A stretch of DNA of 64,000 bases from Anaerosacchariphilus polymeriproducens (GTDB taxonomy: Bacteria; Bacillota; Clostridia; Lachnospirales; Lachnospiraceae). The notes beneath the pieces were generated by a model, which worked only from the letters and a program-made list of their open reading frames with translations, ran no database searches and was not told where the DNA came from. The stretch lies in NCBI RefSeq assembly GCF_003363435.1, contig NZ_QRCT01000050.1, positions 1 through 64,000 of the forward strand, in the 5' to 3' direction. The number at the start of each line of letters is the position of its first letter. Position 1 is the first letter of the stretch. This document shows, in pieces, positions 5,845 through 24,952 of the stretch. The translations under genes and the position numbers were made by a program.

Positions 5845-7401
5845 ATGTATACACCATCTGATTTAGAGAAGATGCCAAAGGAGTTTGAAAGACTTCTGTC
5901 AGATGCTGAAATGCGTATCATGGACGATATTGTTCGACGTATCGCAATAAACAAAGAGATAACAAGGTCAGCGGATTGGCAGTTGTTCCGGTTGACTCAA
6001 ATGGGAGAACAAAGGAAGACAATAGATGATATTCTCAAAAGGACATTAGATCTGTCTCATTCAGAAATAAAACATCTGTACGAAGATGTAATTGGGGAAG
6101 GTTATTCGAGGGATGAAGACTTATACAAAGCTACCGGGACAGAGTTTATTCCATTCCGTAAGAACTTGGAATTACAACAGGCCATTAAAGCAGTTAAATC
6201 TCAAACTCTTGACGAACTAAAGAACATAACGAGAACAACAGGGTTCGCTACTAAGGTGGCAGGAAAGACAGTATTTACACCAACAGCGGAATATTTTCAG
6301 AATATCCTTGATGGTGCCATGATGGATATTGAAACAGGAGCATTTGACTACAACTCAACTATCAACCGTGTAATAAAAGAAATGACAGCGAGTGGTTTAA
6401 GAACCGTAGACTATGGCACCGGATGGAGCAATAGAGTAGAAGTCGCAGCGAGAAGGGCGGTCATGACAGGAGTTTCTCAAGTAACCGGCAAGATAAACGA
6501 AATACACGCAAAAGAACTTGATACAGAGTATTTTGAAGTATCATGGCATGGCACAGCAAGACCTTCACACCAGGAGTGGCAAGGTAAAGTATTTAAAAAG
6601 TCTGAACTAGAGTCTAAATGTGGTTTAGGCACTGTAACCGGGTTGTGTGGTGCTAACTGCCGGCATAGTTATTATCCATTTGTTAAAGGAGTTTCTAAAC
6701 GTACATACACAGATAAACAATTAGCTAAAATGAATGCGAAAGAAAATGAAAAAAAGTCTTTTGCCGGGAAAGAATATACTGCATATGAAGCAACACAGCG
6801 CATGAGACAAATGGAAACACAAATGCGAGCACAAAGGCAGAGAATAAAGCTATTAGAGAGTGGAAATGCTGATAATGACGATATTATTACTGCTAAGGTT
6901 AAATACCAAGCTATATCTCAACAATATGTGCAATTTGCAAATGCTATGGATCTACCACAAGAAAGACAAAGAGTCTATGGTGATGGTTTAGGCCGTGTCG
7001 GCGGTGGGAAAGGTATTGCAAAAACTAACCCAAGTGATATAATAAAGGAGAGAATAAAAACCAGCGAGTACAGCACTAAATTGAGTAAGCAGCAATATTA
7101 TAAGCATGTTGAAGGAACAAAACAATATAACGATTATATGAGGTCCAGAACAGCAAAAGGAAACACTCCACAAAGCATAATAACAATCGATGCGGAAACG
7201 GTTCAGGATATTATAAATAATTATTCCGGCTCTGGAAAAGTTAAAGTATTGAATTCAGGTGTAATATCAAATGTGGAATTTGTTACATATAGTGAAATAG
7301 TAGGTAAATATCATAATGGAACTGATTGGACTAATACAAAAAGGTTTGCAATTCACTATGGTAAAAAGGGAACTCATATCGTCCCAGTAAAGGAGGAATA
7401 A
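5845..7401 (+). CDS. Phage minor capsid protein 2 with C-terminal Ntox50-type toxin domain, 518 aa
   Basis: Residues about 1-330 match the Phage_min_cap2/SPP1 gp7-like family that joins the portal and head: a helical N-terminus and a Cys/His-containing segment (WHGTARPSHQEWQGKVF then CGLGTVTGLCGANCRHSYYPF). Residues about 300-370 are a coiled-coil linker. Residues about 405-518 match the polymorphic-toxin type 50 (Ntox50) domain: KQYYKHVEGTKQYNDYMRSR, then a beta-rich end finishing RFAIHYGKKGTHIVP. Ntox50 is a predicted nuclease found on phage head proteins and polymorphic toxins (family knowledge); activity on phage proteins is unproven. The small gene directly downstream may be its partner. 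Confidence 0.88.
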   Translation: MYTPSDLEKMPKEFERLLSDAEMRIMDDIVRRIAINKEITRSADWQLFRLTQMGEQRKTIDDILKRTLDLSHSEIKHLYEDVIGEGYSRDEDLYKATGTEFIPFRKNLELQQAIKAVKSQTLDELKNITRTTGFATKVAGKTVFTPTAEYFQNILDGAMMDIETGAFDYNSTINRVIKEMTASGLRTVDYGTGWSNRVEVAARRAVMTGVSQVTGKINEIHAKELDTEYFEVSWHGTARPSHQEWQGKVFKKSELESKCGLGTVTGLCGANCRHSYYPFVKGVSKRTYTDKQLAKMNAKENEKKSFAGKEYTAYEATQRMRQMETQMRAQRQRIKLLESGNADNDDIITAKVKYQAISQQYVQFANAMDLPQERQRVYGDGLGRVGGGKGIAKTNPSDIIKERIKTSEYSTKLSKQQYYKHVEGTKQYNDYMRSRTAKGNTPQSIITIDAETVQDIINNYSGSGKVKVLNSGVISNVEFVTYSEIVGKYHNGTDWTNTKRFAIHYGKKGTHIVPVKEE

Positions 7402-21620: not shown

Positions 21621-22058
21621 ATGGAAAAAATCAACAGCTTTAAAATTATTTTATTAACAGTATTCGGAGTTGCAGGAAGTGGACTATCAAAATTACTTGG
21701 AGGATTTGACATGACATTACAAATATTAATAGTTCTTATGATTGCTGACTACATCACTGGTCTTATTGTGGCAGGAGTGTTTAAAAAGTCAGGAAAAACT
21801 GAAACAGGTGCCTTAGAGAGTAGAGCAGGATGGAAAGGCTTGTGTCGCAAAGGCATGGTTCTATTAATTGTTTTGGTAGCAACTCAACTAGATAAGGTTA
21901 CAGGAATCGATTTTATAAGAAATACAGTCATTTTAGGATATGTTGCAAATGAAGCTATTAGCATCACAGAAAATGCTGGCTTAATGGGCGTACCTTTACC
22001 AGGTGTGCTAACAAACGCAATAAATGTATTAAAACAAAAAGCAGAAAGTGAGGAATAG
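21621..22058 (+). CDS. Phage holin (toxin secretion/lysis holin family), 145 aa
   Basis: Membrane protein with hydrophobic helices at about residues 8-27, 34-55, 75-95 and around 105-120, plus the family stretch MIADYITGLIVAGVFKKSGK and the SRAGWKGLCRK loop that define the Phage_holin_4/Cph1-type holins. It makes membrane holes at a programmed time so the endolysin reaches the wall. The endolysin gene follows after three bases. Confidence 0.9.
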   Translation: MEKINSFKIILLTVFGVAGSGLSKLLGGFDMTLQILIVLMIADYITGLIVAGVFKKSGKTETGALESRAGWKGLCRKGMVLLIVLVATQLDKVTGIDFIRNTVILGYVANEAISITENAGLMGVPLPGVLTNAINVLKQKAESEE

Positions 22059-22061
22059 AGT

Positions 22062-22991
22062 ATGAGAGACATCACAGCATTACAACCAGAGGTGCAAGCA
22101 ATAGCGAATAGGTTAGTAGAAAAATGCAGAGAACAAGGTTTAATCATTAAAATAACCGATTGTGTGCGCACCAAAGATGAACAAGACGCTTTATATGCAC
22201 AAGGCAGGACAAGAGCAGGCTCTATTATTACCAATGTTACATACCCACGTTCCAACCATTGTTGGGGCATAGCTTTTGACTTTTGCCGAAATGACGGAAC
22301 AGGCGCATACAACGATACTGACGGATTCTTTACAAAAGTAGGACAGGTAGGAAAGTCACTAGGTTTATTCTGGGGAGGTGATTGGACAAGCATCAAGGAT
22401 AAACCACATTTTCAACTTGAGACCTATGGAACGTGGAGCAGTCTGCAAGCTAGATATGGCACACCAAGCCGATACTTCGCATCATGGGGCGGTTCTATTC
22501 CTGTGATTCAAAAGGAAGAAGCGAAAGTGGTAGTAAATGATGATATTGTCGCAATTAAAGTTTTACAAAAATTCTTGAACAAAAAAGGTTATCGGGACAA
22601 TGAGGGCAAGAAGTTAGTTGAAGATGGTCTAAAAGGAAATAAGACAGTATTCGCAAATACTAAGTTTTTACAAACTATGTTAAATAAAGACGGTTATGCA
22701 GATGCAGAAGGAAGAAAGCTATATGTAGATGGCTATAAGGGCGAAAAGACAGAACAAGCCATGAGAAAGGTTATTTGCAAGGTGCCCGATAAAGATTCTA
22801 AAGGAAGAAACATCTGGAAAGCACCAAAAAATAAAGGCAACGTTGTATTTTACATTCAGACGAACGTCAGTACCAAAAATGATAAATATTATGGCTTTAA
22901 TACTCAAAATGCTGTAATAAGACAGCAAGCGAATCATAACATATCACAAGATGGTATCACAGGATTTAATACACTGAATAGTACATTATAA
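22062..22991 (+). CDS. Endolysin: M15-type peptidase with C-terminal wall-binding repeats, 309 aa
   Basis: Residues about 1-145 are a peptidase M15/VanY-like domain: zinc site motif SNHCWGIAFDF (His and Asp ligands) and KDKPHFQLE (third ligand). It cleaves peptide cross-links (L-Ala-D-Glu or D-Ala bonds) in peptidoglycan. Residues about 165-309 hold repeated units resembling peptidoglycan-binding domains (KVLQKFLNKKGYRDNEGKKL and FLQTMLNKDGYADAEGRKLY). No signal peptide, consistent with holin-dependent release. Confidence 0.88.
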   Translation: MRDITALQPEVQAIANRLVEKCREQGLIIKITDCVRTKDEQDALYAQGRTRAGSIITNVTYPRSNHCWGIAFDFCRNDGTGAYNDTDGFFTKVGQVGKSLGLFWGGDWTSIKDKPHFQLETYGTWSSLQARYGTPSRYFASWGGSIPVIQKEEAKVVVNDDIVAIKVLQKFLNKKGYRDNEGKKLVEDGLKGNKTVFANTKFLQTMLNKDGYADAEGRKLYVDGYKGEKTEQAMRKVICKVPDKDSKGRNIWKAPKNKGNVVFYIQTNVSTKNDKYYGFNTQNAVIRQQANHNISQDGITGFNTLNSTL

Positions 22992-23445: not shown

Positions 23446-23616
23446 ATGGAGGAATTAATCCCACTTGCAGATTACGCAAGGATGCACGGAATTACAACAG
23501 CCACAGCCAGACAGCGAGCAGCGAGAGGTTCATTCAAAACAGCCAGAAAAATGGGGAGAGATTGGGTTATAGACAAAAACGAACCTTATATTGATAATAG
23601 AAAAAAAGAACAATAA
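23446..23616 (+). CDS. Excisionase-like HTH DNA-binding protein, 56 aa
   Basis: The start at 23446 has AAAGGAG nine bases upstream; an in-frame ATG at 23419 lies inside the previous gene and lacks a site. The sequence (IPLADYARMHGITTATARQR then a basic wing ARKMGRDWVID) is a MerR/excisionase-type winged HTH as used by Xis proteins. Small Xis-like proteins close to an attachment site often control recombination direction; this one lies 1.1 kb from the proposed right attachment site, so it is a candidate directionality factor (inference). Confidence 0.7.
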   Translation: MEELIPLADYARMHGITTATARQRAARGSFKTARKMGRDWVIDKNEPYIDNRKKEQ

Positions 23617-23617
23617 A

Positions 23618-23642
23618 AGGGCGGTTCATTGCGAACCGTCCT
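23618..23642. terminator. Bidirectional terminator between convergent genes
   Basis: AGGGCGGTTC and GAACCGTCCT pair over ten positions (one G-U) around ATTGC. On the minus strand it is followed by a T-rich tract, serving the leftward cassette; on the plus strand the tail is AT-rich. Confidence 0.8.
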
Positions 23643-23644
23643 AA

Positions 23645-23839
23645 TTACTTGTCTTTATTTAGTTTTTTTATTGCTCCTTGTATCAAAGATACAATAACAT
23701 AAGTAATAGCGAATATTAATAAGTCGAAAAAGAAATTTTGAATGAAATTGCCAGTAAACAGGCTTGTGTTATCTTCAATAATTCCTCTAGCTATACGACT
23801 TATAATATAAGTAAAAATAAACCTAACTGCTATATCCAT
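23645..23839 (-). CDS. Small membrane protein downstream of the GG-leader peptide, 64 aa
   Basis: Start ATG at 23839 with AAGGCGG seven bases upstream; a TTG at 23842 is in frame but less likely. Two hydrophobic helices (about residues 3-20 and 33-56) flank a polar loop (EDNTSLFTGN), ending in basic KKLNKDK. It begins 12 bases after the stop of the peptide gene, so they are one operon. By position it could be an immunity protein for the peptide (inference). Confidence 0.55.
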   Translation of the reverse strand: MDIAVRFIFTYIISRIARGIIEDNTSLFTGNFIQNFFFDLLIFAITYVIVSLIQGAIKKLNKDK

Positions 23840-23851
23840 CAAAGTACCGCC

Positions 23852-24112
23852 TTATTTCTTTCGATATGTATCACATGTATGACTAAAGATTTTAAAATAT
23901 TCTGTTTGCCTCATTGGATCGTCTGCTTTCGGACCTCTTTTTAAATTATTCCATATTTCGTTTTTATGAGCGATTACCCAATCAAGTCCCTTCCCGATTA
24001 TATAGCCACCAATAAATTCAGCTATCTTAGTTTGAACTGCTGTTCCACCAGATACGTCAATCATTTCTTCTTTATTCAACATGTTACTGTTTTTAGGTAA
24101 TGTTAATTTCAT
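23852..24112 (-). CDS. Double-glycine-leader peptide, putative bacteriocin or signal precursor, 86 aa
   Basis: The ATG at 24112 has a perfect TAAGGAGG ribosome site. Residues 1-23 look like a class II bacteriocin leader: MLNKEEMIDVSGG ends with the Gly-Gly cleavage motif and has hydrophobic residues at the usual positions before it. Residues 24-86 would be the mature 63-residue peptide, with an amphipathic Gly-containing first half (EFIGGYIIGKGLDWVI) and a basic tail with one Cys. No processing ABC transporter is visible nearby, so export would use a transporter elsewhere. A good promoter and a small membrane protein gene flank it. Confidence 0.65.
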   Translation of the reverse strand: MKLTLPKNSNMLNKEEMIDVSGGTAVQTKIAEFIGGYIIGKGLDWVIAHKNEIWNNLKRGPKADDPMRQTEYFKIFSHTCDTYRKK

Positions 24113-24181
24113 TATTTCCTCCTTAGAATACCATTTTATAGTTACATGCACTATACTAGAAAACACTTTTTTACAACATAC

Positions 24182-24210
24182 ATTATAAAATGAAAGATTT
24201 ATCCTTGCAA
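24182..24210 (-). promoter_or_regulatory. Promoter of the GG-leader peptide operon
   Basis: On the minus strand TTGCAA (24210-24205) and TATAAT (24187-24182) are 17 bp apart. Transcription would start about 60 bases before the ATG. This suggests expression by the housekeeping sigma factor in the lysogen. Confidence 0.65.
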
Positions 24211-24237
24211 TATTTTTATGTTGACATAATTCTACAA

Positions 24238-24265
24238 TTAAAAAACCCCACGCAATAGCGCAGGG
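24238..24265 (-). terminator. Terminator for the zinc-ribbon gene
   Basis: Read leftward, CCCTGCGC pairs with GCGTGGGG around TATT and is followed by six T. It insulates the zinc-ribbon gene from the GG-peptide operon. Confidence 0.8.
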
Positions 24266-24344
24266 CATGTATGTGTAATAGGTGAGACATTTTTAATATA
24301 TATGTAGACCGGTTGAAAGTAAAGTTATTTTAATCGACTAATTT

Positions 24345-24742: not shown

Positions 24743-24952
24743 TCATTTATGAGCCAATTCTTCTGTGCCAATATCATTTAATGTAGCGATTGCTTCCGGA
24801 GTAATCATAGTAAATCTTTGACTTAAATATCTTACGGCAGCTCCTAGTTCACCATCAGGTCCTCCGTATTGAGAAATAATATTCGTTGCCATAGCAGGAT
24901 TGGGATTTTTAATTTTAACTGGATATTCTAATATCTTTTCATAAGTCCACAT
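24743..24952 (-). pseudogene. cotJC: 5' fragment of cotJC (spore coat Mn-catalase family), interrupted by the prophage
   Basis: The 69 residues match the start of CotJC: MWTYEKILEYPVKIKNPNP, ISQYGGPDGELGAAVRYLSQR and IGTEELAH. Full-length CotJC is about 190-220 residues and continues after ELAH with the remaining di-manganese helices; here the frame reads one Lys and stops. A proper ribosome site (AAAGGAG) and a mother-cell-type promoter precede it, so the 5' end is intact. Everything left of it belongs to the prophage, so the 3' part of cotJC is expected beyond the other prophage end, outside the window. CotJC is an inner coat protein with manganese catalase homology. Confidence 0.85.

Follow-up and report, generated by a model that had tools for sequence, protein, structure and literature searches.

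Does a dormant virus carry a secreted antibacterial peptide together with the protein that would protect its host, and by which route would such a peptide leave the cell? The question is raised by two small adjoining genes in a window of 64,000 nt, the whole stretch of DNA that was analyzed, which covers positions 1 to 64,000 of contig NZ_QRCT01000050.1 of Anaerosacchariphilus polymeriproducens (Lachnospiraceae; assembly GCF_003363435.1). This two-gene cassette resides in a prophage of a gut-type bacterium, and its first gene encodes a precursor with a double-glycine (GG) leader. We consider it reasonably probable that the cassette specifies an unmodified class II-type bacteriocin and its cognate immunity protein, the peptide being exported in trans by an exporter of the host.

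A two-gene cassette at the right end of a prophage

The right end of the prophage is marked by a holin and an endolysin gene at 21621..22991 on the forward strand (PF05105, 9e-36; PF13539, 1e-13). Between these lysis genes and the prophage end, in the orientation opposite to the late genes, lies a 598-bp segment (23641..24238, reverse strand) that forms a two-gene operon enclosed by two terminators. The same genome harbors a sibling prophage with the same flanks and a lysin that is 95% identical (L074, G000:C47:85104-85604). According to BLASTN, window positions 23608-23640 and 24239-24276 are 97 and 87% identical, respectively, to adjacent sites in this sibling, where both flanking terminators are present without the cassette and 8 bp apart, whereas in the window they are separated by exactly the two genes. 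The segment is also poorer in GC than the prophage late genes (29 versus 37%). Since the sibling has the same terminators but lacks this AT-richer segment, the latter is, as judged from the alignment, a moron that has been inserted cleanly. It is absent in a related phage, deviates in base composition and has transcription signals, the promoter among them a plausible one. Relatives of the lysin and the zinc-ribbon have other cargo or none in the corresponding slot.

In the sibling prophage, a sequence resembling tRNA-Leu was noted by eye about 1.4 kb beyond the corresponding site. Elsewhere in the genome, a 57-bp relic with 91% identity to the 3' end of the cassette, starting exactly at the cassette boundary, is found in the first bases of contig C19 beside chromosomal genes (L069, G000:C19:51-107), which indicates that the cassette or its partner gene was once present there too.

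The gene for the precursor of 86 aa (23852..24112, reverse strand) is preceded by the ribosome site AAGGAGG, five bases upstream of the ATG. Its partner (23645..23839, reverse strand; ATG start at 23839) begins 12 nt beyond the stop codon of the peptide gene and encodes a small membrane protein of 64 aa, a putative immunity protein, for which hydropathy and a single-sequence AlphaFold2 model give two helices (residues 3-22 and 30-63, mean pLDDT 82). A hairpin 3' of the partner gene (-17.3 kcal/mol, z -4.4) represents the intrinsic terminator of the operon at 23622..23638 (reverse strand) and overlaps the terminator of the convergent phage genes. The terminator upstream of the cassette (24245..24266, reverse strand) is, according to the terminator scan and the alignment to L074, common to both prophages. 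A promoter-like TTGCAA-17-TATAAT site (24182..24210, reverse strand; 10/12 in the consensus scan) is located about 70 bases upstream of the precursor ATG. Four promoter-like matches were found in the region versus 4.0 expected in shuffled sequence, a count equal to chance, so that the promoter is plausible rather than demonstrated. The initial annotation, which was made from the sequence alone, had placed the peptide gene on a prophage, behind a strong ribosome site and ahead of a two-helix membrane protein, and was right on each point; the housekeeping-type promoter that it also described is present as a sequence, yet such matches do not exceed chance in number.

The double-glycine leader and the exporters of the host

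The translated precursor starts with a leader of 23 aa, MKLTLPKNSNMLNKEEMIDVSGG (24044..24112, reverse strand), after which the predicted cut point precedes a mature part of 63 aa beginning with TAVQTKIAEF. Leaders of PCAT substrates end in GG or GA, with hydrophobic residues at -4, -7 and -12 and a glutamate near -8. The phage leader has this canonical layout, with L at -12, E at -8, M at -7 and V at -4 in front of GG, while position -15 is occupied by S, a non-hydrophobic residue. A strict motif ([LIVMF]xxx[DE][LIVMF]xx[LIVMF]xGG near the N terminus), counted in ORFs with an SD-like site, occurs in one ORF of the 64-kb window as compared to a mean of 0.0 in 30 shuffles; even a looser motif yields on average 0.07 ORFs per shuffle. 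When 172 kb of host sequence, for the most part from the vicinity of exporter genes, was searched with the strict motif, two peptides emerged, both beside a PCAT gene; the motif thus picks the right kind of gene. Both the GG leader and the length of 63 residues behind it, counted from the translation, therefore stand as initially annotated.

The predicted product is cationic (pI 9.4, charge about +3.6) and has a calculated mass of about 7343 Da. Its glycine-rich, hydrophobic start contains GxxxG and is followed by an amphipathic middle with a hydrophobic moment of up to 0.42. The structure model of the precursor shows a disordered leader and, with lower confidence (mean pLDDT 68), a helical mature part. 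The mature part thus combines the positive charge with the partly hydrophobic, amphipathic helical character of class II peptides.

A GG peptide requires a PCAT in the cell. The initial annotation had noted that no exporter is present locally and had suggested a search for PCAT/ComA-like transporters in the genome. There is indeed no exporter gene in the 64-kb window, but the genome encodes eight C39-peptidase (GG-exporter, PCAT) loci above cut-off, including a truncated one (C12:2263, a 158-aa ORF). Three full-length loci (L012, L016, L018) exceed the cut-off of TIGR01193, 'peptide cleavage/export'.

One host locus deserves particular attention. At C50:134834 a PCAT is accompanied by a peptide with the leader MELNLPSNSVALENAEMSYVDGG and, by eye, by histidine-kinase-like and LytTR-regulator-like ORFs. 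The alignment of the phage leader with this C50 leader scores 51, while shuffles average 16.7 and none of 5000 scored as high; the mature parts of the two peptides, by contrast, are unrelated (p 0.25). In pneumococcus, the leader residues at -15, -12, -7 and -4 steer export through ComAB/BlpAB (PMC7018657). The phage leader and the C50 leader share S, L, M and V at these four positions, whereas the leader of a host peptide on contig C13, MNNFEFLSEEEMYTIEGG, deviates at two of them, with F at -15 and I at -4. Such a close match to the leader of an exported host peptide suggests that the virus probably uses the export pump of the host, and the precursor would most likely be exported in trans via the C50 PCAT. 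Export by a non-cognate PCAT has a precedent in ComAB, which exports BlpC (PMC4739728); in these pneumococcal systems, too, leader residues set the choice of exporter and peptide and exporter can be unlinked, although the peptides are host genes while the peptide described here is located on a prophage (PMC7018657, PMC4739728). The codons of the two leaders differ, hence the phage leader is no recent copy of the C50 leader. Shared ancestry of the leader type is as possible an origin of the likeness as adaptation by the phage. A regulatory site shared by the cassette and the C50 operon was sought, and none was found.

The remaining exporter loci are diverse. The truncated PCAT (L017:2263-2739, G000:C12) comprises the C39 domain only, is situated beside a response-regulator-like gene and has the appearance of a paralogue of the C50 locus that has decayed. 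Two other PCATs (L013 and L015, on G000:C19 and C14) are found beside LanM-sized ORFs of 1038 and 1013 aa, respectively, and L013 also includes a mersacidin-type precursor with a His/Ser-rich core (PF16934, 3e-8).

Possible functions and known counterparts

As we picture it, the cassette would act as a module of lysogenic conversion that consists of a class II-type precursor with its cognate membrane immunity protein directly behind. It would be transcribed in the lysogen, probably from its own promoter, and a host PCAT, most likely that at C50:134834, would recognize the precursor via its GG leader, cleave it after GG and export a cationic peptide of 63 aa. The exported peptide may permeabilize or otherwise inhibit related bacteria without the prophage, whereas the 64-aa two-helix protein would shield the lysogens. 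Expression, export by this PCAT, antibacterial activity and immunity are thus what we infer from the two genes and their setting. The initial annotation had proposed an antimicrobial or signaling peptide with a partner that could give immunity, a reading that our results support in part.

Among class II bacteriocins with GG leaders the immunity gene is usually found directly behind the peptide gene. The order observed here, with a small membrane protein gene at a distance of 12 nt, counts in favor of a bacteriocin and its immunity protein. On the other hand, a mature part of 63 aa is long for class II, which counts against this reading, as do the promoter count at chance level and the lack of family matches above cut-off and of homologues. 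The precursor reaches 13.2 bits with PF10439 (cut-off 27.1) and 13.1 bits with PF08129 (cut-off 25), both at E ~0.09; no curated bacteriocin family is matched above cut-off and the mature part alone has no match in Pfam. When the leader was combined with shuffled cores, none of nine controls matched a bacteriocin family, which counts in favor of the bacteriocin reading, but one matched an unrelated family at 4.5e-6, so that E-values of this kind are no proof. We therefore do not assign the peptide to any named bacteriocin family.

Homologues of the peptide or its partner were found neither in 195 genomes of relatives nor in 397 genomes of the family, 392 of the order and 391 of the class (overlapping samples). 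Phage records, plasmid records and IMG/VR gave none beyond the contig of the same genome, and a scan of the genome contigs gave none either. Searches with the full peptide, the leader, the mature part and the partner returned the own locus or chance-level matches, the matches at E 0.003-0.02 being isolated, 28-39% identical and inside longer frames, and hence treated as chance. The partner 'hits' in 84 genomes at E <= 1 were discarded as weak transmembrane-type matches, with the exception of the DNA relic on C19. A leader-motif scan of viral contigs revealed no further GG peptide of strict layout in a phage, and a sequence search of the PDB gave chance matches alone.

The same evidence has to be weighed for other functions. 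GG leaders are common to pheromones and bacteriocins, and the kinase-like and regulator-like ORFs belong to the very C50 cluster whose leader resembles that of the phage. The peptide might be a pheromone, secreted via the host PCAT, that signals the density of lysogens or disturbs the peptide-sensing kinase of C50, with the partner as an accessory. However, 63 aa is long for a pheromone as well, the cassette comprises neither receptor nor regulator and the mature part is unlike the C50 peptide, and we regard such a signal as unlikely. Small prophage membrane proteins often block superinfection, and no exporter adjoins the two genes, as would fit a module of superinfection exclusion or toxin-antitoxin type that acts inside the cell, with the membrane protein as effector. 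The leader motif would then be coincidental. Against this, the leader agrees with the core consensus and resembles a GG leader of the host far more closely than chance would allow; an intracellular role is about as unlikely as a signal. The orphan status of the sequence and the relic on C19 are compatible with decaying or spurious genes left by another element. Yet the ORF is intact, ribosome sites and a terminator are present and the insertion is clean with its own flanks, which makes such a remnant very improbable.

A bacteriocin with cognate immunity that depends on a host exporter thus remains our preferred interpretation. A further-reaching version, which we put forward tentatively and with considerable doubt, holds that the export tag, whether evolved by the phage or recruited, is tailored to the C50 PCAT, so that the phage carries weapon and shield alone and borrows the secretion machinery of the host. 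The mature peptide and the partner would then constitute a new bacteriocin family and a new type of immunity protein, respectively.

The nearest precedent for this interpretation is sublancin from the Bacillus prophage SPbeta, in which a prophage-borne antimicrobial precursor (SunA), the leader of which is cleaved off by the exporter, is combined with the dedicated immunity protein SunI (PMC6391423). In contrast to the cassette described here, SPbeta carries genes for an exporter of its own (SunT) and for modification enzymes, and sunI has its own promoter while our partner gene shares one operon with the peptide gene. No sequence kinship between the cassette and sublancin or SunI was found. 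A modified RiPP (lanthipeptide, glycocin) was rejected, as the partner is the sole other gene in the 598-bp cassette and no modification enzyme is encoded there.

In the case of the lactococcin G/enterocin 1071 type (PF08129, PF11632), the likeness consists of the GG leader, the glycine-rich hydrophobic start with GxxxG and the sub-threshold PF08129 match. The host has a genuine class IIb cluster on C13 (L016, 6603-10907, reverse strand), with one peptide that matches LcnG-beta (1.8e-11), another that matches the alpha/beta enterocin family (1.4e-6), a PCAT and an HlyD-like protein, and its presence counts in favor of the bacteriocin reading. The phage peptide differs from this type in being single, in its longer C-terminal tail and in scoring below every cut-off; its mature part weakly resembles the alpha-type peptide of the host (p 0.012). 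A two-peptide class IIb bacteriocin was rejected given the one GG peptide in the window. The C13 cluster also encodes a sub-threshold CAAX-protease-like (PF02517) protein.

According to a review (PMC7616364, citing Dragos et al., 2021), biosynthetic clusters, mostly of bacteriocins, have been reported in as many as 3% of prophages. The present cassette has in common with those the principle of a phage-carried interbacterial weapon, but it is reduced to two genes without an exporter. Bacteriocin-carrying prophages shape which strains prevail in a community. The best-studied example, sublancin, brings its own exporter. A cassette of two genes that depends on the exporter of the host, in contrast, could easily be missed by genome mining and would arm lysogens at a cost of about 600 bp. 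The leader match sharply predicts the transporter that would be used, the PCAT of C50.

Interruption of cotJC by the prophage

At the host/prophage junction the window contains the N-terminal fragment of cotJC (24743..24952, reverse strand; PF05067, 8e-20), a gene for a Mn-catalase-like spore-coat protein. From 24952 downwards the fragment comprises the start of the gene, with about 62 host codons up to a shared ACA. The remainder is located on another contig (G000:C33, about 6014-6434, L070), behind an ORF resembling a large serine recombinase (L070:4470-6002), and joining both flanks at the shared ACA results in an in-frame CotJC of 200 aa. SPbeta splits spsM, is excised in sporulation and integrates by means of a large serine recombinase (PMC4191935). 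The prophage described here is likewise inserted in a sporulation gene and is a candidate for a new intervening element of sporulation genes, comparable to skin or SPbeta. cotJC is absent from the interrupted sporulation genes listed in PMC10747680. The C. difficile prophage phi027 adjoins a cotJC-like gene.
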